A stretch of DNA of 64,000 nucleotides from Rosa chinensis (Eukaryota; Streptophyta; Magnoliopsida; Rosales; Rosaceae), in NCBI RefSeq assembly GCF_002994745.2, contig NC_037091.1, positions 6,162,001 through 6,226,000 on the forward strand. The letters run 5' to 3'. The number at the start of each line of letters is the position of its first letter. Within the stretch, counting starts at the first letter, position 1. The translations under genes and the position numbers were made by a program. Under the pieces are notes generated by a model that made no database searches, was not told the DNA's origin, and worked only from the letters and a program-made list of their open reading frames with translations. Below are positions 8,781 to 62,483 of this stretch, in pieces.

Positions 8781-9281
8781 TAATAAGTCTTAATTAAACA
8801 AATCAAATCAACTAATGAATGAGAAATCTACTCTAGAGTTGTCTAATTATATGTCTAGGGGTGTTACCTAAGTGGAAGATTACAGTAGCAAACTATCAAT
8901 TTCTTTTGAACAATTCCTATCATCAAAGTACGTCTGTCGTACAATCAGATTTGTTGATAAGCTTACATAAAACTGATAGACTTCTCTTTATTCCTAATTG
9001 ACCGGGTATATTTTTCTTCATTTCTATATCACGAAACTACTATTCTCCATTTTGCTTCTGCATGCGTGCAAGGACTTCCAGCGTCTAAAAGTAAACAGCC
9101 TCTACGCATTTTCATATATGCATTTATCATAAGACCCAAATAGTCAATAATCACCACCCACAACTTGTTCAATGATCCACTATATATATGAATCTCTCCT
9201 TCCCTCCAATACACCACAAACATATTCCAAGAGAGATATTCATCATCAGAAAGTGCAAGCCTAGATTGAAAGAAAGCAAAG
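8781..9281 (+). promoter_or_regulatory. Promoter of PI-1
   Basis: Upstream regions of PI-1, PI-2, PI-4 and PI-5 are alignable over about 450 bp. A W-box core TTGACC lies at 8998-9003, 284 bp before the ATG, and is kept in the other copies. A TATA box (CTATATATATG) lies near 9180-9190, about 95 bp before the ATG. W-boxes bind WRKY factors. Wound or pathogen induction is an inference from family knowledge. Confidence 0.6.
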
Positions 9282-9600
9282 ATGTCCGATCAATGCGAAG
9301 GTAAGGTTGATGCATGATCATATCTGGGTACTTGGTTTCTGCATTATAAAGTAATTGTTGCGAGTATTAAATTTTTTTTGAGTCCATATATATAATATAT
9401 ATGCAGGTAAGGATTCATGGCCTGAACTGTTGGGAGCTGAGGGAACAGTTGCAAAGGCAACAATTGAGAGCGAAAACTCTTTGGTCGAGGCAGTGATCGT
9501 GCTAGAAGGAACACCTGTCACTGGAGATTTCCGGTGTGATAGGGTTCGTGTTTGGGTCGATACAGATGGCATTGTTACCAGGGTCCCTGTCATTGGGTAA
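9282..9600 (+). CDS. PI-1, potato inhibitor I family serine-protease inhibitor
   Basis: Two exons, 9282-9300 and 9407-9600, give 70 aa. The 106-bp intron is GT-AG and splits the codon for Gly7 (phase 1). The protein has the family core: KDSWPELLG at 8-16, then the central helix, a binding loop around VTGDFRCDRVRVWVD (44-58) and the C-terminal TRVPVIG. By alignment to chymotrypsin inhibitor 2 the scissile bond is Gly46-Asp47. Cys5 and Cys50 can form the disulfide seen in some dicot members. There is no signal peptide, so it is probably cytosolic or wound-released. It inhibits serine proteases in a substrate-like way. Gly at P1 is unusual, so the target is uncertain. The start is set by exon 1 homology across the paralogues and by the TATA box 95 bp upstream. 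Confidence 0.92.
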
Positions 9601-10080
9601 TTGATCGATCGTTGATAATAAGGGTTACTTGTGAAGAAATTCATATAAAATAATACTGAAATAATGAGTTGTATTTCCATGCAATATTCATTGTACTAAA
9701 CAGTACGTAGTTTGTTTTCCTTTCAGTGTATTTTTAATGAATCTATTTAAATAAAGAATTATTGCCTTTTCTTCTTTCCTCCTCCTCCTTTAAATATTCT
9801 TAATTTCTGATCAACTACAAATGTGGTTAGGGTCTTTCTTTCAATACACCATACATAGGAATCTACGCTTTCAACGAATATTATCAAACAGATAAAGATT
9901 AGTCAATTTTTAATGAGTGAAATGACCAAACAGATAAAGAGAACTACAAATGTGGTTAGAGTTTTTTCAGTACACCGTGCGTACGAACCTAGGCTTTCCA
10001 TGGATGTTATTAAACAGATAAAGATCAGTCAATTTTTAAGGAGTAAAATGACCAAACAGATAAAGATAATCTGGACTTCT
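9601..10080 (+). other. 3' flank of PI-1, duplicated in other PI loci; no gene
   Basis: This matches flanks of PI-2 (26399-26880), PI-4 (48654-49010) and PI-5 (58476-58860). Possible poly(A) signals AATAAAG lie near 9751. A degenerate internal repeat around CAGATAAAGAT occurs three or four times. I see no reading frame worth calling. Confidence 0.65.
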
Positions 10081-11089
10081 GGAGTACAAAACTAACCGAT
10101 CACATCTTACCAAATTTTACGTTGTTGAACAACTACATGTTGAAATACAGCAACCACAGAAGAAACTTCTTACTTTGAAAAGAACTATTAGTAGAGGTGA
10201 TCACCATCGGTTCTTTTCTGTTTAGGGTTAAGACTTTGTTTGGTGTCAATCAATTCCGTATACAATAGACCCAAGAAATAGTTCGTTTGCACAAGCAAGA
10301 AACCGATAAACAAAGTTATGTACGTGTGTCTTTGATTACACAACATTACTCTGCGACTCCTTGACAAAGGAACATCCAAACAGGCGCTTTGGATCAGTTG
10401 TACCACCGTAGTTCAATGGATACTGGTAGCTTCTCCTTGTGCAGCCATCCACCTTTTGCTGTTCATTTTAGACTCGCTAACTGATTCTAGTTTGTTTCAT
10501 GAGTTGTCTATATTTGGAAATGTTAAGCAGCAAAATTATTCTGTTGTTCATCATCTCCAACTCTCATTTGCTCCAATTGACTGGTTTCTTTTGCCCTTTG
10601 TTCATGTTTTACTTGATGTAGAGAAATTTCCATACCTTTTATGGTGTAATTGCTGATTAGAGGGTGCGCAAACGATTAAGAAATGCTATGACAGGTTTTA
10701 ATTGCAAATTAAAGGGTTCAGAAGCCCAACTAATAAATTTCTTCTACTCACATAGAACTCTTGTTTAGGTAGGCCTAAAGACAGTAAGCACAACTAGGAA
10801 GAAAAATGCAAGATTTTCAAGCTGAGAGCTAGAGGCAAGCCAAGACTGATGCTAATATTTGGTAAAAGTGTCGAAATACATTGCAGACCACGAAATCCTT
10901 CAGGATTTCTTACAGTGTGCTCTATATGAAGCTAAATAAAACAGTTAATATGCTTCTTCATCTTGGTTGTTGTTTTCGGAAACTGCAATATAGGATCAAA
11001 AGACGTGGGAATTACTATCAACTTCATACACCTATATAAGGTCAGTTTTGACTAGACAGGAGGAAGAACCTAAAGAAAGAGTCTACGTA
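10081..11089. other. PI-to-RRM spacer, duplicated; no gene
   Basis: This is homologous to 26880-27060 plus 34323-35162, and to 56062-56857 and 58860-59870. It contains GCGCTTTGGAT, CAATGGATACTGG and CATGAGTTGTC blocks and the RRM 3' UTR. Open frames are short and not conserved between copies. Confidence 0.6.
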
Positions 11090-11324: not shown

Positions 11325-11502
11325 TGTTGAAGGATATCGACATAATGTGTGCCTCTACAAACTAGGGTTTAGAGTTGTAATAGGAATGTGTTATAAGTAT
11401 TCAATTATAATCAGATTCTATTACCTTTTTGGGTACCTTGTAACTCCCTATTTAAAGGGCTCCTATTATCAATAATAAACACAATTTCATTCTCCTACAA
11501 CA
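11325..11502 (+). repeat. Copia-A 5' LTR (178 bp)
   Basis: It starts TGTTGAAGGATATCG and ends CTACAACA. TATTTAAAGGGC near 11450 is the likely promoter element. The pair at 17279-17456 has equal length. Confidence 0.95.
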
Positions 11503-11516
11503 TGTTATCAGCACGA
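11503..11516 (+). promoter_or_regulatory. Copia-A primer-binding site, tRNA-Ile anticodon-arm type
   Basis: The sequence TGTTATCAGCACGA lies directly after the 5' LTR. Its last 12 bases are complementary to UCGUGCU-A/I-AUAA of plant tRNA-Ile (recalled from memory), with C facing position 34, which is inosine in the mature tRNA. The same motif follows the 5' LTRs of Copia-C and Copia-D. Confidence 0.6.
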
Positions 11517-12097
11517 GCCCTAACCCTAGCCTAAAAAAAAAAAAAAAAAAAACCAAAAACCCTAGCTTTTGAAAAAAAAAAAACTTTTCTCTCTACCGCA
11601 CAACACCAGCCTCCCTTGCTCTGCACACCAGCCCGTACACCTGAGCACCCGCCTGCACACCGCTGCTTCCTGCTTTCCTGTTGCACCTCCCTACTGCACA
11701 ATTGCTCGAGCCCGCTGCCTGCTGCTGCCGAACCAGTCGCACCTCCCTGCCGCACTGCACAGCAGCCCCCGCTGCTTCCTGCCTCCCTGCCGCACCTCCC
11801 TGCTGCACAACTGCCCGAGCCCAAGCACCTGCAGCCTCCTTGTAGCCCTCCTGTTGCTCCCTGCGTCCTACCCCCAGCAGCCCAAGCCGCGAACAACCCA
11901 AGCACCTGCAGCAGCAGCAGCTTCCCAATCACCGCCGGACACCAGAGCCTCCGCCTCACCGGCTAGCCGACCTTAAGCGTTGCTGCACCTGCTCGATCAA
12001 TACCCGGCCACGCACCTGCAATTAGGAGGAGGAAGAACAGAGGAAAGAAAGAAGAAGAAGACGCGAAAGAAAAAAAAAGGGAAGGGACCCGGCCCAG

Positions 12098-17278: not shown

Positions 17279-17456
17279 TGTTGAAGGATATCGACATAAT
17301 GTCTGCCTCTACAAACTAGGGTTTAGAGTTGTAATAGGAATGTGTTCTAGGTATTCAATTGTAATCAGATTCTATTACCTTTTTGGGTACCTTGTAACTC
17401 CCTATTTAAAGGGCTCCTATTATCAATAATAAACACAATTCCATTCTCCTACAACA
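17279..17456 (+). repeat. Copia-A 3' LTR
   Basis: 178 bp, partner of 11325-11502. It is followed by the target duplication TGCAA. Confidence 0.95.
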
Positions 17457-27060: not shown

Positions 27061-27302
27061 TGTTGTAAATAGTTATGGTTAATATCATGTAAATAGATGG
27101 AGAGTCATATATGCCTTTCACTATAGATTAGTGATTGATAGGATTGTGAATAGGAGTAATTGACGTTGCTCTTAAAAGTTGCCTATTTGTATACATCATG
27201 TACTCCTATATAAACCCCCTCATGGTGAGATGAATAGACACTCTATCTCCATGCGCCCAAACTCTCTCTTTTCTGAAACACTTTTGCTTTCATTTTACAA
27301 CA
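27061..27302 (+). repeat. Copia-C 5' LTR
   Basis: TGTTGTAAATAG start and TTTACAACA end. TATA in CTCCTATATAAACCCC near 27205-27220. Confidence 0.95.
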
Positions 27303-27316
27303 CATTATCAGCACGA
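27303..27316 (+). promoter_or_regulatory. Copia-C primer-binding site, tRNA-Ile anticodon-arm type
   Basis: CATTATCAGCACGA directly follows the LTR. The core TTATCAGCACGA is identical in Copia-A, C and D. Confidence 0.6.
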
Positions 27317-27777
27317 TATTCTAACCCAAGCTCTAGCCAGGAAAAAACCCCCCCCCTGCTGCAACCTCCCTGCTGCTCCTGCCGCAGCCTCCCTGCAGCC
27401 CCCACTGCCCCTGCAGCATCGTCGCACGCCTGTTGCCCCTGCAGCACAGCAGCACGCTAGTTCATGTGCAGATCAGCCTGTTTTCATGCCCCGAAACCTC
27501 TTGATCGGGACCTCAGATCAAAATCTTTCCTTCGTCAAAGTTGTTCGTCTCTGCCTCTTCTATCCACTCTCCAAATTTCAGCCCTATTGGAATTGTTTTG
27601 AGACCTGTACACCATTCGAAGTGGGAGCTATCTAGAAGAGGTTACTCGGTATACGTATTTGTATATATTTGTTCATGTGTTTGGGATTGTTTGATTGGAA
27701 AAGAAAAAAATTAGGATACTTTGGCTGTAGCTATTTCTAGCACTTGGTCCAGTGGCACCAATGCAAAAATAAAATTT

Positions 27778-34080: not shown

Positions 34081-34322
34081 TGTTGTAAATAGTTATGGCT
34101 AATATCATGTAAATAGATGGAGAGTCATACATGCCTTTCACTATAGATTAGTGATTGATAGGATTGTGAATAGAAGTAATTGACGTTGCTATTAAACGTT
34201 GCCTATTTGTATACATCATGTACTCCTATATAAACCCCCTCATGGTGAGATGAATAGACACTCTATCTCCATGCTCCCAAACTCTCTCTTTTCTGAAACA
34301 CTTTTGCTTTCATTTTACAACA
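34081..34322 (+). repeat. Copia-C 3' LTR
   Basis: 242 bp, partner of 27061-27302, followed by target duplication CCCAA. Confidence 0.95.
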
Positions 34323-35162
34323 CCCAAGAAATAGTTCGTTTGCACAAGCAAGAAACCGATAAACAAAGTTGTGTCTTTGATTACACAACATTACTCTACG
34401 ATTCCTTGACAAAGGAACATCCAAACAGGTGCTTTGGATCAATTGTGCCACCGTAGTTCAATGGATACTGGTAGCTTCTCCTTGTGCAGCCATCCACCTT
34501 TTGCTGTTCATTTTAGACTCGTTAACTGATTCTAGTTTGTTTCATGAGTTGTCCATACATGGAAATGTTAAGCAGCAAAATTATTCTGTTGTTCGTCATC
34601 TCCAACTCTCATTTGCTCCAGTTGACTGGTTTCTTTTGCCCTTTGTTCATATTTTACTTGATGTAGCTAGAGAAATTTCCGTACCTTTTATGGTGTAATT
34701 GCTGATTAGAGGGTGCGCAGACCATTAAGAAATGCTATGAGAGGTTTTAATTGCAAATTAAAGGGTTCAGAAGACCACTTATAAAATAATTCTTCTACTT
34801 ACATAGAACTCTTGTTTAGGCCTAAAGACAGTAAGCACAACTAGGAAGAGAAATGAAAGATTTTCAAGCTGAGAGCTAGAGGCAAGCCAACGCTGATGCT
34901 AATATTAGGTAAAAGTGTCGAAATGCATTGCAGACCGTGAAATCCTTCAGGATTTCTATACTCTATATGAAGCTAAATAAAACAGTTAATTAATATGCTT
35001 CTTCGTCTTGGTTGTTGTTTCTACTCAAGAAGTCTCGACTCTTGGACATCAAATTTCAGAAACTGCAATATTGGATCAAAAGACGTGGGAATTACTATCA
35101 ACTTCATACACCTATATAAGGTCAGTTTTGACTAGACAGGAGGAAGAACCTAAATAAAGAGT
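34323..35162. other. PI-to-RRM spacer; no gene
   Basis: Continuation of the PI-2/RRM-A unit after Copia-C. Highly similar to 59019-59870. It includes the RRM 3' UTR. Confidence 0.7.
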
Positions 35163-35759
35163 CTACCATTCATCTGCAACTGGAATGTGATAATGCTGTG
35201 CCAACCGCCTAGCAGTTCCATCTGTTATCACACTATTTATCATTTCATACTTCTCATGATTCGCCTTGAGGGCTCCTTGCTGCCTCTCTGCAAGCTTCTC
35301 TTCATCCTCCAACTGTTGATTGAGCGCAATGTCAACTTCAAGAGCATGATCCTTAGCAAGCTGCTTCAATTTATTTGCCACTTCAAAGTCAGGATCCTTT
35401 GTCTCCACCCAACGGAACTCTATCTTTCTACCGGGCTTTGCAGGACGATCCCCAAACATCTCCGGTTTCGCTTCACGTGCCCTCACAGGCCTTGGAATTC
35501 CACCAACCATAAAAGGCCTGTGAGATATTTCTGAGACAATGGCATTAGCCTGCCTCGGGTTCTCCATCTCCACCAATGCAGAAACGGGGATGTTCTTTGT
35601 TTCCAAGTAATTTGGAATGAATTGAACATTTTTAACTGTTCCAAACTGAGAGATAGCTTTTCTGACAACCGGTTCAGTAACCTGTGGAGAGAGTTTATCA
35701 AGGTAAACAGTTCGTCTGACCTTTTCCTCAAATGCAGAGTACTCTGCTTCTGAAGCCAT
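35163..35759 (-). CDS. RRM-A, 198-aa RRM protein (EDM3/AIPP1-like), possibly promoterless copy
   Basis: An intact minus-strand frame of 198 codons, one coding exon. Residues about 16-90 form an RNA recognition motif: RNP2 is VYLDKL (18-23) and the RNP1 region is around NIPVSALVEM (56-65). Residues 115-198 are charged and helical (NQQLEDEEKLAERQQ), ending HYHIPVADEW. From memory it resembles small plant RRM proteins of the EDM3/AIPP1 type, which act with chromatin and RNA-processing factors. RRM-A differs from RRM-B at two residues: Lys22 for Asn in RNP2 and Gly103 for Glu. Its homology upstream ends at 36673, inside the 5' UTR intron, so the first exon and promoter of RRM-B are absent. It may be silent or use a new promoter. 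Confidence 0.75.
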   Translation of the reverse strand: MASEAEYSAFEEKVRRTVYLDKLSPQVTEPVVRKAISQFGTVKNVQFIPNYLETKNIPVSALVEMENPRQANAIVSEISHRPFMVGGIPRPVRAREAKPEMFGDRPAKPGRKIEFRWVETKDPDFEVANKLKQLAKDHALEVDIALNQQLEDEEKLAERQQGALKANHEKYEMINSVITDGTARRLAQHYHIPVADEW

Positions 35760-36673
35760 ATTCCAACAGCACGTAAAAATCTAACATGAAACAGAGTTCA
35801 ATAGTTAGTCAAAACATTTCAAATTCTGGTATAATTCCTATTCAAGCAAAGAATTAAAGAAAATAGGAATCATAACAAAACCCAGAAAGTGCAGATTCAT
35901 CATAGAACACCTAATCTTTGAATGAAATAAGTAATCCACAAAGCTTAACATATTAAGCTCCCAACCCTAATGCAGCATTAACATGGCATTAGCCAAAAGA
36001 TTGTAGTCCTCATTCTAGACGTTACTGTTATTTTTCACAACCTCATTTAGATGAAGTTATTGTTTATTGACCTGCATCACAAAAATCCCCACTGGTTTCA
36101 GTTCAGACCAGACCAGATCTGGATTGACAAAAATTTCAAAGCTAAGATATCAACTTTTAGAATGTGCCCCATCTCAGATTGCATGCCAATAATATCAACA
36201 AGTGATCTGATAGCAATAGTAAATATCAACTCATCAGTTCAAGCAGATACAGTAGATACATGCTAAATGCAAAGACTCACATTTTGAATGGGATGGGGGA
36301 AAATAATAATAATCACATGGCACGTCAATGTCGATGACAAAAGGAAAACTAACACGCAACACCTACAAGAATATCATCAACAAGTGTTTCAAGAAAGCAC
36401 GAATTAAGAAGTCTAGCGTCTATCAATGTGAATACGAAAACAGACTTGATATCCAACAAGTTTAAGGAACTTTTAACAATCAAATGTCACCGTGATAACT
36501 AACCCATTAATTGAGTACATTCAGATCTGTGCATTCCAATTGCAAACTTCCTTAATTGTTGAATGGGGTTCAATGTACAGTTTAAAACTTCTAACTGATG
36601 TGTTTTTAATGAATAAAAAAGGCCATATTGTTTCTCTATCTTACGAGTATATTGGATAAGCCATAAGTTATCT
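35760..36673 (-). other. Partial 5' UTR intron of RRM-A
   Basis: Nearly identical to 60468-61383. A shared acceptor (TTCATGTTAG on the minus strand) lies near 35781. Homology stops after CCATAAGTTATCT. Confidence 0.7.
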
Positions 36674-40715: not shown

Positions 40716-40924
40716 TGTTTAAGGAAAAAGAGATTCGAGAGAAATTGTAGAGAGAATTGTGTATCATATTATTGAGAATAGGAGCCCTATATATAGGGAT
40801 TACAAAGTACTAGTTCTAATGTTACAAGGAATACCAATCCGCGTAGGATTGGAAAATCTAGAACCTTCTCTCCTATTGCTACTCCTAGTTTGATAAGGCA
40901 CACTAAATCGATATTCCTTCAACA
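40716..40924 (-). repeat. Copia-D 3' LTR
   Basis: On the minus strand it starts TGTTGAAGGAATATCG and ends TTCCTTAAACA. It is preceded by the purine tract (CTCCCCCTTG on plus, 40925-40934). TATA in CCTATATATAGGG. Confidence 0.95.
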
Positions 40925-41416: not shown

Positions 41417-44400
41417 TTAAATATGTCTAATTACAGACCTTAGCCATATGCATTCACGCACGGCTTCATGTAGAGCAATAATCTCTGCATGATTTGAGGA
41501 AGTAGCAACAAGGGTCTGTTTCGTAAACCTCCAAGATATCGCAGTGCTTCCCATGGTAAAGACATAACCCGTTTGGGAGCGACCTTTGTGAGGGTCAGAG
41601 AGGTACCCTGCGTCAGCAAAACCCATCAAGACATCATTTTCGTTTTGATGAAGGGGGATAGGGTGAGGCCGGCCACCCCTGGTGGTGGTGAAGGCGTTGG
41701 CGACAACATGGCTGGCCACCTTGTCATGGTGGACGGTGGCTCCATGCCTAATGGGGTCCGATCCCATTCTTCCGTCATTCCCCTTCTCTCTGTAGGGATA
41801 AAATAGGCCCATATCAATCGTACCTCTTAGGTATCGAAAGATTGTCTTTACACCAATCCAATGGCGACGTGTAGGCGCAGAGCTATGTCTAGCTAACAAG
41901 TTCACTGCGAATGAGATGTCTGGTCTTGTGCATTGAGCTAAGTACAATAATGCGCCTATTGCACTTAAATAGGGCACTTCTGCCTCTAATAGCTCTTCGT
42001 CCTCATCCTTTGGACGAAACGGATCTTTTCCTGGCTCAAGACTACGACCGATCATGGGAATACTCACAGGCTTTGCTTTATCTTCATTAAAGCGCCTTAA
42101 GATTTTCTGAGTATATGCAAACTGATGGATCAAAATGCCATCACTACGGTGCTTGAGTTCTAAACCGAGACAAAACCGTGTTTTCCCAAGATCTTTCATC
42201 TCAAATTCGGATTTCAAGTATTTAGCAGTTTCCTTCAACTCATCTAGAGTTCCAATTAGGTTCATGTCATCGACATAAACTGCTACGATTGCAAATCCGG
42301 AACTTGTTCTTTTAATGAACACGCATGGGCATATTTCATTATTAATATATCCCTTCCCAATCAAGTAGTCACTTAGACGGTTATACCACATCCGTCCGGA
42401 TTGTTTTAATCCATATAGTGAGCGTTTTAATCTTATTGAAAACGCGCTCCGTGGTTTAGAGCCACTTGATTTGGGTAATTGAAGTCCATCTGGAACCTTC
42501 ATATATATCTCTGAATCTAGATCCCCATAGAGATATGCTGTAACCACATCCATAAGCTGCATGTCAAGTTTTTCGGAAACTACCAAACTGACAAGGTAGC
42601 GGAACGTTATAACGTCCATTACGGGAGAATATGTCTCCTCGTAGTCGATTCCGGGGCGTTGTGAGAAACCTTGCGCCACGAGGCGGGCTTTATATCTAAC
42701 CACCTCATTTTTCTCATTACGCTTTCTAACAAAGACCCATTTATGGCCAACAGGTTTTACATCTGGGGGTGTCTGTGTTATAGGCCCAAATACCTGTCTC
42801 TTTGCTAGTGAATCCAATTCAGCCTGGATCGCATCTTTCCATTTAGGCCAATCCGCTCTTCGTTGAAATTCTTCGACAGAGCGAGGTTCGATATCATCAT
42901 ATTCTATGATTCCTTTTGCAACATGATATGCAAATGCATCATCAATTGCCATAGAATTTCTATCCATCATCTCATGTACACTAGTGTAATTCATGGAGAT
43001 CTCTCTATTCTCTGGAGTTGGTTCTGACATTGGAGCGTCCCCCAATGATGTCTCTTGGACATAACCATAATCCAGAATGTTCTCATGAGATGGATTATTT
43101 ACATCGATGATTAATGGATTATTTTGTGCCAAACTCGCTTTCTTTCTTGGGCGAGAATCCATCGAACCTATTGGCCTCCTGCGCTTCCTGGCAGGAGCCG
43201 TGGGCCTAGCCACAACGTCACTACCACTGTGGACGTTGGCGCCATGCTCAAGTGCCCTTGAGGTGGCGTCATGTCCTCTAATTTTAGGGACATCAATCCT
43301 TGCAGGCACATTTGCAGCAGGTATGTGTAATCTCGTCACTTTAGCGATATCAGAAAACGCATCAGGCATCGATTCTGCTACGTTCTGAAGATCGAGAATT
43401 CTCCGCACTTCAATTTCGGACTGTACGGTTCGGGGATCAAGATGAGACAGAGTGGGGACAGACCACGACAATTCCTGTCGTTCCTGTTGAACATTTATGT
43501 TCTTATCTCCCCCTAACGACTGGAAGACTGTCTCATCGAAGTGACAATCCGCAAATCTTGCGGTAAAGAGATCGCCTGTCAAGGGTTCTAAATAGCGGAC
43601 AATAGTTGGAGACTCATATCCAACATAAATGCCTAATCGTCGTTGAGGACCCATTTTGGTGCGCTGTGGCGGCGCAATAGGCACATATACTGCACACCCA
43701 AATATGCGTAAGTGTGAGACATTAGGCTCATACCCAGTCACCATCTGGGACGCAGAAAAAGGTTGAGTGGCAGTGGGCCTCAGACGAATAAGCACAGCTG
43801 CATGCAGAATTGCATAGCCCCAAGCAGAAATAAGGAGATTGGTGCGCATTACCAATGCCCTAGCGACCATTTGTAGTCGTTTAATGGCGGCTTCTGCGAG
43901 ACCGTTTTGGGTGTGAACATGAGGAACTGGATGTTCAACCTCAATCCCAATGGACATGCAATAATCATCAAAAGTTTTTTATGTAAACTCCCCAGCATTG
44001 TCTAATCTTATAGATTTAATAGGATGATCAGGGTGGTGAGCCCTCAACTTAATAATCTGTGCTAGGAGTTTAGCAAATGCAGCGTTCCTAGTGGACAATA
44101 GCATGACATGTGACCAGCGTATCGATGCATCAACCAACACCATAAAATATCTAAATGGTCCGCATGGTGGTTGAATAGGTCCACAAATATCACCTTGGAT
44201 TCTTTGCAAGAATGGTATATTTTCTTTAGTGTCCTTTGCATAGGATGGTCTCGATCCTAATTTTGCTAAAGAGCAGGCTTTGCAGAATGAATAATGGGCT
44301 TTAGAAACAACCAATGAGGATTTTGGTTGAGCCACGAAGTCACAATGGACTTGAGAAGTAGAAATTGGAGTCAGGGGAGCAGAGGTGGCGTCAAAGCCAC

Positions 44401-46071: not shown

Positions 46072-46642
46072 TAATTGCGTGAATCCCCACAATTCCGCTT
46101 TCTCAAGAATCGAACCCACGTTATAAGAAAGGTGGGATGTAGAAGAAGGGAGGTTGCAAGTCCCCGAAGAAAAAGAAGGAGAAATTAAAATTCGAAAACA
46201 GGAACTTTAATTTAAAAACTTACTTGTTGAAAATTCGGAGCAGATTCTGTTCTAAACAGCTTGTACCTCGATTGGTGTACAGATCTCAATATAACTCCGA
46301 TAAGGCTGAAATTCGGAGGTTAGATGGAAGAGACAGAGACGAACAACTTTGATGAAGAAAGTTTTTAGATCTGAGCTTCCGAACTAGACGTTTCAAGGCT
46401 TGCAAGAAGACGGATGTGCACAGAAACGGGAAAAAGATGCAGTGGGTGTGTGTTGGCTTGTTTGCGCAGCAGGGATGCTTCGGTGGCAGCAGGCTGGAAC
46501 GCAGGACTGCAGGGAGGGGGCAGCAGGGGCTGCTGTGCAAGGTTGCAAATGCACGGGCGCTCGGGCTGCAGCGAAGGCTCGGCTAGCTCGGGCTAGGGGC
46601 TGCTTTGTGAATGAGTTTTGGTTTTCTGTTTTGTGGTTAGAG

Positions 46643-46656
46643 TCGTGCTGATAACG
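46643..46656 (-). promoter_or_regulatory. Copia-D primer-binding site, tRNA-Ile anticodon-arm type
   Basis: On plus it reads TCGTGCTGATAACG, directly next to the LTR. It equals the tRNA-Ile anticodon arm over 14 nt except G for A34, so the RNA-sense site has C opposite inosine. Confidence 0.6.
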
Positions 46657-46867
46657 TGTTTAAGGAAAAAGAGATTCGAGAGAAATTGTAGAGAGAATTG
46701 TGTATCATATTATTGAGAATAGGAGCCCTATATATAGAGATTACAAAGTACTAGTTCTAATGTTACAAGGAATACCAATCCGTGTAGGATTGGGAAATCT
46801 AGAACCTATTCTCTCCTATTGCTACTCCTAGTTTGATAAGGCACACTAAATCGATATTCCTTCAACA
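46657..46867 (-). repeat. Copia-D 5' LTR
   Basis: 211 bp, partner of 40716-40924, flanked on the right by CACTA. Confidence 0.95.
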
Positions 46868-54932: not shown

Positions 54933-55561
54933 GAGCGCAGAAGAAACTGTAAAGTAAAACATGTAATAGGCCTTAAGCAAAAATTGCCAAACTACATACC
55001 AATTCCTGAGCATTTTGTTCCTGCAAGTTGATGTATAATACATACATACGATTTCTGATTACATCCAATACACAATCAAGACATTGAAGTTGAAAAATAA
55101 ATGCTAACCTCATTCAGTTCCTTAAATTTCATGACAGAAGCATGAAGCGTGGATGGATATAAGCATGAAAACAGCAAAAAAAGACATGATATGGGCTCCC
55201 AGCGATAGTGTGTGAATAACCCATTGCTTGATTTGAGTAAATAAGAAGCATAAACACCAAAAGAAAAGAAACCCCCAAAACTGGGTTTGTGAAAACCCAA
55301 AATGTGCAGCGGAAGAATGGGGATGAACGGGATGAATCATATTGATTCCAATAAAACAAAACGCACCGTTTGAAATAAAAAAACACAGGCCCCATTTTTA
55401 TTTTATTGTAATTTCCAAATTTCCCTATGTTTTGTTTATGCAAAATCCCTAGTGGGAGATAGAAAGAGGGAGAGAAAGATAACACTTCTTTTATTTTTTA
55501 TTAGGAACAACCGAAAAGCTTTAACCGATCTCTATATATGCAGGGTGGCTCTGATACCACT

Positions 55562-57640: not shown

Positions 57641-58163
57641 ATAAGTCTTAATTAAACAAATCAAATCAACTAATGAATGAGAATCTAGCAATTTCTTTTG
57701 AACAATTCCTATCAACAAAGTACGTCTGTACGTAGTACAATAAGATTTGTTGATAAGCTTACAGAAAACTGATAGGCTTCTCTGTATTCCTAATTGACCA
57801 GGTATATTTTTCTTCATTTTTATATCACGAATTTGTTGATAAGCTTACATAAAACTGATAGACTTCTCTGTATTCCTAATTGACCAGGTATATTTTTCTT
57901 CATTTTTATATCACGAAACTACTATTCTCCATTTTGCTTCTGCATACGTGCAAGGATTACCAACGTCTAAAAGTAAACAGCCCTGTTCAAGGATTACCAA
58001 TGTTATTATTATAAGATCGGAATAGTTAATAATCACCGACCACAACTTGTTCACTGATCCACTATAAATATGAATCTTTCCTTCCTTCCAATACACCACA
58101 AACATATTCCAAGACAGATATTCATTATCAGAGAGTAAAAGCCTAGATTGAAAGAAAGCAAAG
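57641..58163 (+). promoter_or_regulatory. Promoter of PI-5 with duplicated W-box segment
   Basis: An 86-bp segment is tandemly duplicated (57745-57830 and 57831-57916). Each copy has a TTGACC core (57794-57799, 57880-57885). TATA is TATAAATA at 58063-58070, about 95 bp before the ATG. Confidence 0.7.
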
Positions 58164-58475
58164 ATGTCTGATCAATGCGAAGGTAATGTATGCTTGATCT
58201 GGTTCCTTTGATTCTTTAATTATAAAGTAATTGATGCGAGTACTAATTTTTTATGAGTCCTTATATAAAATATATATGCAGGTAAGGATTCATGGCCTGA
58301 ACTGTTGGGAGCTCAAGGAACAGTTGCGAAGGCAACAATTGAGAGAGAAAACTCTTTAGTCGAGGCAGTGATTGTGCTTGAAGGATCATTTGTCACTCAA
58401 GATTTCAGGTGTGATAGGGTTCGTGTTTGGGTCAATACAGATGGCATTGTTACCAGGGTCCCTGTCATTGGGTAA
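58164..58475 (+). CDS. PI-5, potato inhibitor I family serine-protease inhibitor
   Basis: Exons 58164-58182 and 58282-58475 give 70 aa. The 99-bp GT-AG intron is in the conserved position. It is close to PI-1, with KDSWPELLG, loop VTQDFRCDRVRVWVN (44-58) and ending TRVPVIG. P1-P1' by alignment is Gln46-Asp47. Arg28 in ERENS replaces Ser of the paralogues, and Asn58 replaces Asp after the loop strand. Cys5 and Cys50 are kept. The frame is intact and the promoter has a TATA box and two W-box cores. It is adjacent to the only RRM copy with a full upstream region, so this unit may be the most complete in the window. Confidence 0.92.
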
Positions 58476-59870
58476 TTGATCGGTCGTTGATAATAATGGT
58501 TACTAGCTAGTCTCTTACATACATGTGAAGAAAATCATATGAAATAATACTGAAATAATGAAATAATGAGTTATATTTCCATGTAATATTCATTGTATTA
58601 AACAGTATGTAGTTTGTTTTTCTTTCAGTTTATTCTTACTGAATCTACATAAATAAAGAATTATTTGCCTTTTCTTCTCTAAATATTCTTGTCTCTGATG
58701 ATCAATTACAAATGTGGTTGGGGTTTTCTTTCATTACACCATACATAGGAATCTAGGCTTTCAATGAATGTTATTAAACAGATAAAAATTAATCAATTTT
58801 TGACAAGCAAAATGACCAAACAGATAAAGATAATCTGGAGAACAAAACTAAAACGATCACATCTTACCAAATTTTTCCTTGTTTAACAAACTACATCGTG
58901 AAATACAGCAACACAGAAGAAACTTCTTACTTTGAAAAGAAATATTGGTAGAGGTGAGTTCTTTTCTTATTTGGGTTTAGACTTTGCTTTGTGTCAATCA
59001 ATTCCGTATACAAAATGACCCAAGAAATAGTTCGTTTGCACGAGCAAGAAACCGATAAATATAGTTATGTGTGTCTTTGATTACACAACATTACTCTGCG
59101 ACTCCTTGGCAAAGGAACATCCAACAGGCGCTTTGGATTCATTGTGCCACCGTAGTTCAATGGATACTGGTAGCTTCTACTTGTGCAGCAGGCGCTTTGG
59201 ATTTATTCCACCTTTCGCTGTTCATTTTAGACTCGCTAAATGATTCTAGTTTGTTTCATGAGTTATCCATACTTGGAAATGTTAGGCAGCAAAATTATTC
59301 TGTTGTTCATGATCTTCAACGTCTCATTTGCTCCAGTTGACTGGTTTCTTTTTCCCTTTGTTCATGTTTTACTTGATGTAGAGAAATTTCCATACCTTTT
59401 ATGGCGTAAATTGCCGATCAGAGGGTGCACAGACCATTAAGAAATGCTATATATGACAGATTTTAATTGCAAATTAAAGGATTCAGAAGACCACTAATAA
59501 ATTACTTACATAGAACTCTTGTTTAGGCCTAAAGACAGTAAGCACAACTAGGAAGAGAAATGAAAGATTTTCAAGCTGAGAGCTAGAGGCAGGCCAACAC
59601 TGATGCTAATATTAGGTAAAAGTGTCGAAATGCATTGCAGACCATGAAATCCTTCTGGATTTCTTACAATGTACTCTATATGAAGCTAAATAAAACAGTT
59701 AATATGCTTCTTCGTCTTGGTTGTTGTTTCTACTCAAGAAGTCTCGACTCTTGACATCAAATTTCAGAAACTGCAATATTGGATCAAAAGACTTGGGAAT
59801 TACTATCAACTTCATACACCTATATAAGGTCAGGTTTGACTAGACAGGAGGAAGAACCTAAATAAAGAGT
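58476..59870. other. PI-5 3' flank and PI-to-RRM spacer; no gene
   Basis: Paralogous to 9601-11089. A small local duplication of GCAGGCGCTTTGGAT is visible near 59124 and 59187. The RRM-B 3' UTR occupies the right end. Confidence 0.65.
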
Positions 59871-60467
59871 CTACCATTCATCTGCAACTGGAATGTGATA
59901 ATGCTGTGCCAAACGCCTAGCAGTTCCATCTGTTATCACACTATTTATCATTTCATACTTCTCATGATTCGCCTTGAGGGCTCCTTGCTGCCTCTCTGCA
60001 AGCTTCTCTTCATCCTCCAACTGTTGATTGAGCGCAATGTCAACTTCAAGAGCATGATCCTTAGCAAGCTGCTTCAATTTATTTGCCACTTCAAAGTCAG
60101 GATCCTTTGTCTCCACCCAACGGAACTCTATCTTTCTACCAGGCTTTGCAGGACGATCCTCAAACATCTCCGGTTTCGCTTCACGTGCCCTCACAGGCCT
60201 TGGAATTCCACCAACCATAAAAGGCCTGTGAGATATTTCTGAGACAATGGCATTAGCCTGCCTCGGGTTCTCCATCTCCACCAACGCAGAAACGGGGATG
60301 TTCTTTGTTTCCAAGTAATTTGGAATGAATTGAACATTTTTAACTGTCCCGAACTGAGAGATAGCTTTTCTGACAACCGGTTCAGTAACCTGTGGAGAGA
60401 GGTTATCAAGGTAAACAGTTCGTCTGACCTTTTCCTCAAATGCAGAGTACTCTGCTTCTGAAGCCAT
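59871..60467 (-). CDS. RRM-B, 198-aa RRM protein (EDM3/AIPP1-like)
   Basis: Intact minus-strand frame of 198 codons in one coding exon. RRM at about 16-90 with RNP2 VYLDNL (18-23), the consensus form, and a degenerate RNP1 around 56-65. The C-terminal half has RKIEFRWVETKDPDFEVANK (about 111-130), a charged helix and a conserved tail. The length fits the full small-RRM family. The family link to EDM3/AIPP1, RNA-binding partners in heterochromatin-associated transcript processing, is from memory. This copy keeps the RNP2 Asn, a 5' UTR intron of about 2.0 kb and a first noncoding exon near 62484-62560, so it is the likely functional parent of RRM-A. Confidence 0.85.
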   Translation of the reverse strand: MASEAEYSAFEEKVRRTVYLDNLSPQVTEPVVRKAISQFGTVKNVQFIPNYLETKNIPVSALVEMENPRQANAIVSEISHRPFMVGGIPRPVRAREAKPEMFEDRPAKPGRKIEFRWVETKDPDFEVANKLKQLAKDHALEVDIALNQQLEDEEKLAERQQGALKANHEKYEMINSVITDGTARRLAQHYHIPVADEW

Positions 60468-60488
60468 ATTCCAACAGCAAGTAAAAAT

Positions 60489-62483
60489 CTAACATGAAAC
60501 AGAGTTCAACAGTTAGCCAAAACATTTCAAATTCTGGTATAATTCCTATTCAAGCAAAGAATTAAAGAAAATAGGAATCATAACAAAACCCCAGAAAGTG
60601 CAGATTCATCATAGAACACCTAATCTTTGAATGAAATAAGTAATCCACAAAGCTTAACATATTAAGGCTCCCAACCCTAATGCAGCATTAACATAGCATT
60701 AGCCAAAAGATTGTAGTCCTCATTCTAGACGTTACTGTTATTTTTTACAACCTCATTTAGATGAAGTTATTGTTTATTGACCTGCATCACACAAATCCCC
60801 ACTGGTTTCAGTTCAGACCAGAACAGATCTGGATTGACAAAAATTTCAAAGCTAAGATATCAACTTTTAGAATGTGCCCCATCTCAGATTGCATGCCAAT
60901 AATATCAACAAGTGATCTGATAGCAATAGTAAATATCAACTCATCAGTTCAAGCAGATACAGTAGATACATGCTAAATGCAAAGACTCACATTTTGAATG
61001 GGATGGGGGGAAATAATAATAATCAAATGGCACGTCAATGTCGATGACAAAAGGAAAACTAACACACAACACCTACAAGAATATCATCAACAAGTGTTTA
61101 AAGAAAGCACAAATTAAGAAGTCTAGCGTCTATCAATGTGAATACGAAAACAGACTTGATATCCAACAAGTTAAGGAACTTTTAACAATCAAATGTCACC
61201 GTGATAACTAACCCATTAATTGAGTACATTCAGATCTGTGCATTCCAATTGCAAACTTCCTTAATTGTTGAATGGGGTTCAATGTACAGTTTAAAACTTC
61301 TAACTGATGTGTTTTTAATGAATAAAAGAAGGCCATATTGTTTCTCTATCTTACGAGCATATTGGACAAGCCATAAGTTATCTGACCAGCTGAAGATCCA
61401 CCTCAGACCATCCAAGAGAAACCTTTCATATCTTATGCAATAGTAGACATGTTTCACATCAGTGTCTTATCAAAGATATTAATTTCTAAGACCCAAAAGC
61501 ATAAGATTTACCTCCCAAATTTCCTTTTAATCAAAAAGACAATGCTTGGACAAGAAAAACCATCTAATTATCCTTATTTAGTCATTGAATCAATTAAACT
61601 TCCAGTCCTACAAATAAGACATTACTATTTATTCCCCTCCAAGAGAACCATGTTCTGCCAGCATCGTTTGTGTTAACTAAGTGTAAATGGCCATCATCCT
61701 TTCACAAACCTCCTCCTCCCTTTTGTCAGGGCTCAGAATGAATTGTCAAAGACAAGACAGAGGCATCTTAACCAAAACTATGATAGTCATGGACTATTAT
61801 CCTCTCTAGTCTTGGACTATTAACCAAGAGAAACCTCGAGTACATTAGAGAATTGCAATAGAAGGCTCACGATTGTGGAGAAAAAAACGCACAAAGAAAC
61901 CTAGCCGATCTACAAATGAAGCAGGGTCACCACTAAAGACGATAGACGTGATTCTGGCCTAAATTTTGATGCAAAAACCACATCACATGCAGCACATAAT
62001 GGCTTTACTAATCTACTTAACTCCAGAATGTTCATCAAATAAAGTCTTGTTAGAGCAAATCATTAGATATAGTGAGATATAACAAAAGATGTATTCAACT
62101 CAAACAACCCACAGGTAAATCCGAGGAGACAATCACCAAAACAGAAACAATGTAGCCTAATCCACCCACATGTAAAAATAACTAACCAGGATACTATATG
62201 ATAGGCTTTAGCCTTACAAGTCACGACCTTTATTCTTATGCAACCTTCAGAAATGAGCTAAGAATCACAAATTCTTAGTATTTATAAAGTCATCTATGAA
62301 ATGGGGAAGCTTTATGGGCTAAGAGAAAAGAAAACCCAAGATTATTGGCAACTCAAGTTCTTCAAACCCCTCTTTTTAAGTACTCAACTTTCACCAAATT
62401 TAACCGAGGGAACTCTACAGAGACCAAAACCCAGATGCAATATGAGAAAACGAAGAAAACCCTCATTTTACTTTTGAACATAC
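60489..62483 (-). other. 5' UTR intron of RRM-B
   Basis: On minus the donor is CTCAGAG|GTATGT (exon end at 62484) and the acceptor is TTTCATGTTAG (ending at 60489), 20-odd bases before the ATG. Parts of the intron recur at 2058-2338 and 35781-36673. Inferred from splice-site sequences only. Confidence 0.45.

Follow-up and report, generated by a model that had tools for sequence, protein, structure and literature searches.

Which tRNA primes reverse transcription in copia retrotransposons that lack the standard primer site? The question is raised by a stretch of 64,000 nucleotides of Rosa chinensis (contig NC_037091.1, positions 6,162,001 to 6,226,000), here called the window. An exact 12-mer search of the window found three copies of TTATCAGCACGA, one each in the elements Copia-A, Copia-C and Copia-D. 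All three elements have paired LTRs, as judged by LTR alignment, and a 5-bp target duplication read from the flanks. The original prediction had placed the motif just after the 5' LTR, and this was confirmed; in each element the 12-mer starts 2 nt beyond the LTR end, and the predicted spans include this 2-nt spacer. The neighboring Copia-E, for which a different site had been claimed, indeed has one of the tRNA-iMet type. No tRNA genes were detected in the window by ARAGORN. The coordinates are shown in Table 1. Apart from the LTRs of these elements, segments shared across the window represent several further families of diverged dispersed repeats, for example at 8936-10561, 34370-36618 and 57732-61327.

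Table 1. Positions of LTRs, primer sites and adjoining sequences of the copia elements in the window
Feature	Position	Strand	Evidence or remark
Copia-A 5' LTR (TG...CA)	11325..11502	+	LTR alignment; TSD TGCAA
Copia-A spacer TG	11503..11504	+	Most sampled copies have CG, which would pair with tRNA C39/G40
Copia-A primer site TTATCAGCACGA	11505..11516	+	Faces tRNA-Ile 38-27; C at 11509 opposite position 34
Copia-A GCCCTAACC	11517..11525	+	Complementary to tRNA-Ile 25-18 (D arm) at 8/9; base facing G26 absent in the alignment used
Copia-A 3' LTR	17279..17456	+	LTR alignment
Copia-C 5' LTR	27061..27302	+	LTR alignment; TSD CCCAA
Copia-C spacer CA	27303..27304	+	LTR alignment
Copia-C primer site TTATCAGCACGA	27305..27316	+	Exact 12-mer match
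Copia-C TATTCTAACC	27317..27326	+	T facing G26, then D-arm complement at 7/9
Copia-C 3' LTR	34081..34322	+	LTR alignment
Copia-D 5' LTR	46657..46867	-	LTR alignment; TSD TAGTG
Copia-D spacer CG	46655..46656	-	Pairs with tRNA C39 and G40
Copia-D primer site TTATCAGCACGA	46643..46654	-	Exact 12-mer match
Copia-D CTCTAACC	46635..46642	-	Complement of tRNA-Ile 24-18; two bases absent
Copia-D pol piece (SH3-like, RVT_2)	41417..43957	-	Pfam domains, tblastn
Copia-D 3' LTR	40716..40924	-	LTR alignment
Copia-E primer site TGGTATCAGAGC, tRNA-iMet type, for comparison	55548..55559	-	Exact match

The tRNA-Ile arm TCGTGCTAATAACGNGA was matched at 21 places in the same genome, and 19 of these loci are tRNA-Ile genes with the anticodon aat according to ARAGORN. 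The anticodon arm that the original prediction had given is therefore correct for this genome. The remaining two arm matches have no ARAGORN gene; L031 looks truncated in the T arm and L035 in the D arm. The gene-derived complement of the arm is CGTTAT[T]AGCACGA. Positions 27-40 of the tRNA (TCGTGCTAATAACG) face CGTTATCAGCACGA, with C opposite A34 as the sole non-pair, and the match ends at tRNA position 40 or 38. A34 is the base known to be edited to inosine in this tRNA, and inosine pairs with C. The energy of the 14-nt core duplex was -22.6 kcal/mol with G34 as a stand-in for inosine, which flatters the I-C pair, and -16.2 kcal/mol with A34. A site with T facing position 34 pairs almost as well with unedited A34 (-20.3 kcal/mol).

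Genome-wide, CANNTTATCAGCACGA is present in 3,326 exact copies (1623 + 1703) in 515 Mb, and the reversed-pattern control in none, ruling out a chance origin of the motif. With up to one mismatch the counts were 5,553 (2730 + 2823) and 35. A sample of 103 copies was made up of the first 100 places listed for the genome, all on contig C1, and the three window sites. These copies were retrieved by the 12-mer itself, so that conservation of the 12-mer is readable from the variant counts only. The spacer in the sample was CG in 89 copies, TG in 8, CA in 3 and AG in 3. CG is thus the norm, and the 14-nt match is not special to Copia-D as had been supposed. Copia-A and Copia-C probably once had a CG spacer, because TG and CA are the two products of CpG decay. 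If the spacer CG is part of the site, the tRNA half would end near position 40 and minus-strand DNA would start at the LTR edge; if it lies outside the site, the half would end at position 38 and two bases would be trimmed at integration.

At the site base opposite tRNA position 34 the states C and T were counted. T is found in 166 copies genome-wide (79 + 87) versus 230 (122 + 108) for a matched decay control, in which the same CAG trinucleotide decays on its opposite strand (G to A; binomial p 0.0015). With no excess over this control, T34 was rejected as a second working state. The CG spacer was present in 16 of 30 fetched T34 copies (of the 166) versus 88 of 100 C34 loci (Fisher p 0.0001), suggesting that the T34 copies are older. 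The nearest neighbor of a T34 copy was a C34 copy in 16/30 cases; this lies close to the lower limit of what random draws gave (median 0.67, 5-95% 0.52-0.85) and is neutral for or against decay. The working state is most likely C34, with T34 as its decay product. In keeping with the half-tRNA reading, C is the main state of the family as between C and T, and the T34 copies are fewer than those of the matched decay control. Three of the 30 fetched T34 loci represent one triplicated context, and the rest are spread over subfamilies. These three contexts (L242, L243 and L244, at G000:C1 531153, 542640 and 554122) are identical over the ~90 nt compared and lie ~11.5 kb apart, and look like a triplicated genomic block with one element.

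Pfam searches of Copia-D identified GAG-pre-integrase, a weak rve match (E 0.0019, under the cutoff), SH3-like and RVT_2 domains, which is the copia order with integrase before RT. Copia-C has a weak SH3-like domain followed by RVT_2. The pieces of Copia-A that were searched have no Pfam match, and the element is related to the Copia-D pol by tblastn. With the Copia-D pol as the tblastn query, Copia-A and Copia-C matched at 37-68% per segment and the iMet-type Copia-E at 26-42%. The 37-68% match of Copia-A and Copia-C indicates that the primer site is common across deep divergence within the group. Bianca elements are characterized by two ORFs ~172 bp apart on average; the window copies Copia-A, Copia-C and Copia-D are all broken into pieces. 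On the basis of primer site and abundance, the three are most likely decayed Ty1/copia elements of the Bianca lineage. Bianca makes up >45% of the annotated full-length LTR elements in dogrose according to a 2025 paper (PMC12222009).

We propose that Copia-A, Copia-C and Copia-D used the 5' half of cytosolic tRNA-Ile(IAU) to start minus-strand DNA, the tRNA having been cleaved within its anticodon arm at about position 38-40. Base pairs with the site would span tRNA positions 27-38 or 27-40 and would include one between inosine 34 and the C opposite it. Judged from sequence, the whole explanation, namely decayed Bianca elements primed by the 5' half of edited tRNA-Ile(IAU) with C pairing with I34, has a probability of roughly 0.87. 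We infer the priming itself, and with it both inosine at A34 and the half tRNA as primer, from known tRNA biology. The primer half of Drosophila copia comes from initiator tRNA-Met, whereas the rose elements match the arm of tRNA-Ile(AAU) genes and probably not an iMet half. The yeast elements Ty1 and Ty3 are primed by the complete tRNA-iMet.

The half-tRNA-Ile reading with C facing inosine, which the original prediction had put forward, is supported both by the sequence tests above and by publication. Neumann et al. 2019 describe Ty1/copia Bianca elements with a site complementary to an edited half tRNA-Ile, in which A-to-I conversion at the first anticodon base allows pairing (PMC6317226). 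The interpretation is already known, and the present finding is a correct rediscovery. The whole-genome counts support the published claim, under which a tRNA editing mark is needed to explain the primer site. Bianca as defined in REXdb shares with the rose elements the half tRNA-Ile site with edited position 34 (PMC6317226), the 5-bp target duplication, the copia domain order as read in Copia-D, and abundance in a rose species (PMC12222009); no tested feature differed. A tRNA half as primer is likewise named for Drosophila copia (PMC5371799). Osser, Bryco and part of Gymco-II are plant or algal Ty1/copia elements with a half-tRNA site, but for tRNA-Met and not the inosine-bearing tRNA-Ile (PMC6317226). 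Priming by a tRNA 3' end or by the element itself instead of a half tRNA is very improbable: self-priming is predicted for one plant copia lineage, TAR (PMC6317226), but would give no reason to expect a tRNA arm to be matched over 12-14 nt, a check of 58 loci of these elements found no tRNA gene, and the TGG required by a CCA end is absent from the three window sites (its absence from the genome sample follows by construction from the search pattern).

Sequence similarity to the complement of tRNA-Ile extends beyond the half-tRNA-Ile primer site. After CGA, 80 of the 103 copies match GCTCTAACC, the complement of tRNA positions 25-18, at 7/9 or better. Pairing would continue past a skipped or mismatched G26 to G18, a pattern that is suggestive only, of an extended primer site or of a record of reverse transcription past modified G26. 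Among the papers listed by searches of the open-licence PMC literature, we recognized none on the D-arm extension or the base-26 pattern, and the passages of Neumann et al. 2019 (PMC6317226) considered here make no mention of the extension. One subfamily (L175, L206, L216, L238 and L259, with the LTR end ..TATAACA) has kept the primer site, but its leader differs and has TTTGCTCT following the site.

The account of the extension that survives best, at slightly under even odds, is that the elements inherit site and extension through their own RNA, as Ty1 does, and that selection for pairing with the edited primer maintains both, the extension forming a longer or bipartite site. Ty1 and Ty3 do without inheritance of the primer tRNA sequence and use bipartite sites, in which separate segments pair with the primer tRNA (PMC7472051, PMC5371799), although the likeness to the rose elements is in working only. 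Consistent with selection, the D-arm piece adds ~13 kcal/mol to the Copia-D duplex. However, opposite the A at tRNA position 23 many copies have a non-pairing C, and just 46/103 have T; moreover, C seldom faces G26.

It is unlikely, but deserves consideration, that the tRNA half serves the reverse transcriptase as a template for plus-strand DNA, in which case C34 reads out inosine and a disturbed position 26 reads out dimethyl-G26 through stop, skip or misreading. Of 92 anchored copies, 50 carry a base opposite G26 (A 43, T 5, C 1, G 1); a single base is missing from 29 others and two from the remaining 13. A "missing" base depends on the alignment, however, and these counts carry limited weight given how the anchor was chosen and that the copies share ancestry. 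TTATCAGCACGANGCYCTAACC fits 841 copies genome-wide, and among 100 of these listed, all on C1, the base facing 26 was by eye A in 95, C in 3 and T in 2; the copies are related, however, so A at this position may represent few events. An A is what plant dimethyl-G would be expected to give, since it is mostly read as U, corresponding to A in cDNA (PMC2674459). Reported events at G26 of tRNA-Ile(CAT) in plastids include deletions and stops at position 27, and hard stops are described in general, but the substitution at plastid G26 is G to C and not G to U, so that A is not matched (PMC11658184). Dimethyl-G, inosine and Gm all occur in Arabidopsis, which also has homologues of the TRM1, TRM3 and TAD genes (PMC2956550). 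In PMC2674459, however, dimethyl-G was seen solely in Asn, Met and Tyr tRNAs, and no evidence of dimethyl-G26 in plant tRNA-Ile(AAU) was found in the literature looked at. Retroviruses copy the primer tRNA, whereas the precedent of Ty1, which does not copy it into the element, argues against copying here (PMC7472051, PMC5371799).

Copying was also assessed at the junction, where the 3-5 nt after the site were compared with the leader and the LTR end in disjoint close pairs; the 11/103 copies without a TAACC-like anchor were left out. At a 10% cut, site-adjacent nucleotides differed at 15/105 positions versus 34/596 in the leader (p 0.003) and 35/861 at the LTR end (p 0.0001), a ratio to the leader of 2.5 (1.2-4.3). 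This excess favors copying, but it shrinks at looser cuts, to 1.65 (0.96-2.64; 22/149 versus 75/843) at 15% and 1.64 (1.07-2.41; 29/170 versus 100/966) at 20%, and within pairs the column opposite 26 is almost constant (changed in 1/13, 1/19 and 1/21). Earlier junction tests were rejected, as free end gaps had admitted degenerate pairs; the replacement test gives the weaker effect reported here. The fullest form of the copying account is less likely again. In it, each round would copy the tRNA-Ile half from ~40 to ~18, with inosine-34 recorded as C and dimethyl-G26 as A or as a gap, and thousands of insertions would thereby archive which bases were modified. If the extension past G26 were copied from the primer, plant genomes would be a readable record of tRNA modification, and the copia lineage here would inherit primer sequence, unlike Ty1.

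We also consider it doubtful that the D-arm-like piece is a coincidence, an ordinary CCCTAA-rich plant leader next to a 12-14-nt site that alone matters. CCCTA-like strings do recur further along many of these leaders, and shared family ancestry reduces the number of independent events. Shuffled targets nevertheless gave a mean of 3.4 matching copies, and 0/2000 reached the observed 80, although one reached 69/103. The phase of the match was 0 or 1 in 79 of the 80 matching copies. By column, matches ranged from 45% to 97% over the nine D-arm columns and were 26, 16, 1, 8 and 6% over the next five, values that are inflated by taking the best of four offsets. The sharp drop after G18, which is also seen among 19 cluster founders, argues against coincidence; later columns with A in the tRNA complement reach values as high as 64%, which is what A-rich leaders would give.

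A pattern scan of IMG/VR matched at least 120 stretches, which were taken as chance, since the pattern has just 14 fixed bases; an 18-mer gave 0. The "PBS" of a cotton paper was rejected as a primer site because it is a population statistic. The ice plant "novel miRNA" mcr-miR6 (TTCGTGCTGATAACGTGTTGAA; PMC4977306) is antisense to an apparent LTR end, CG and half-tRNA-Ile site with A facing position 26, and would probably be better classed as a small RNA of a Bianca-like element than as a miRNA.
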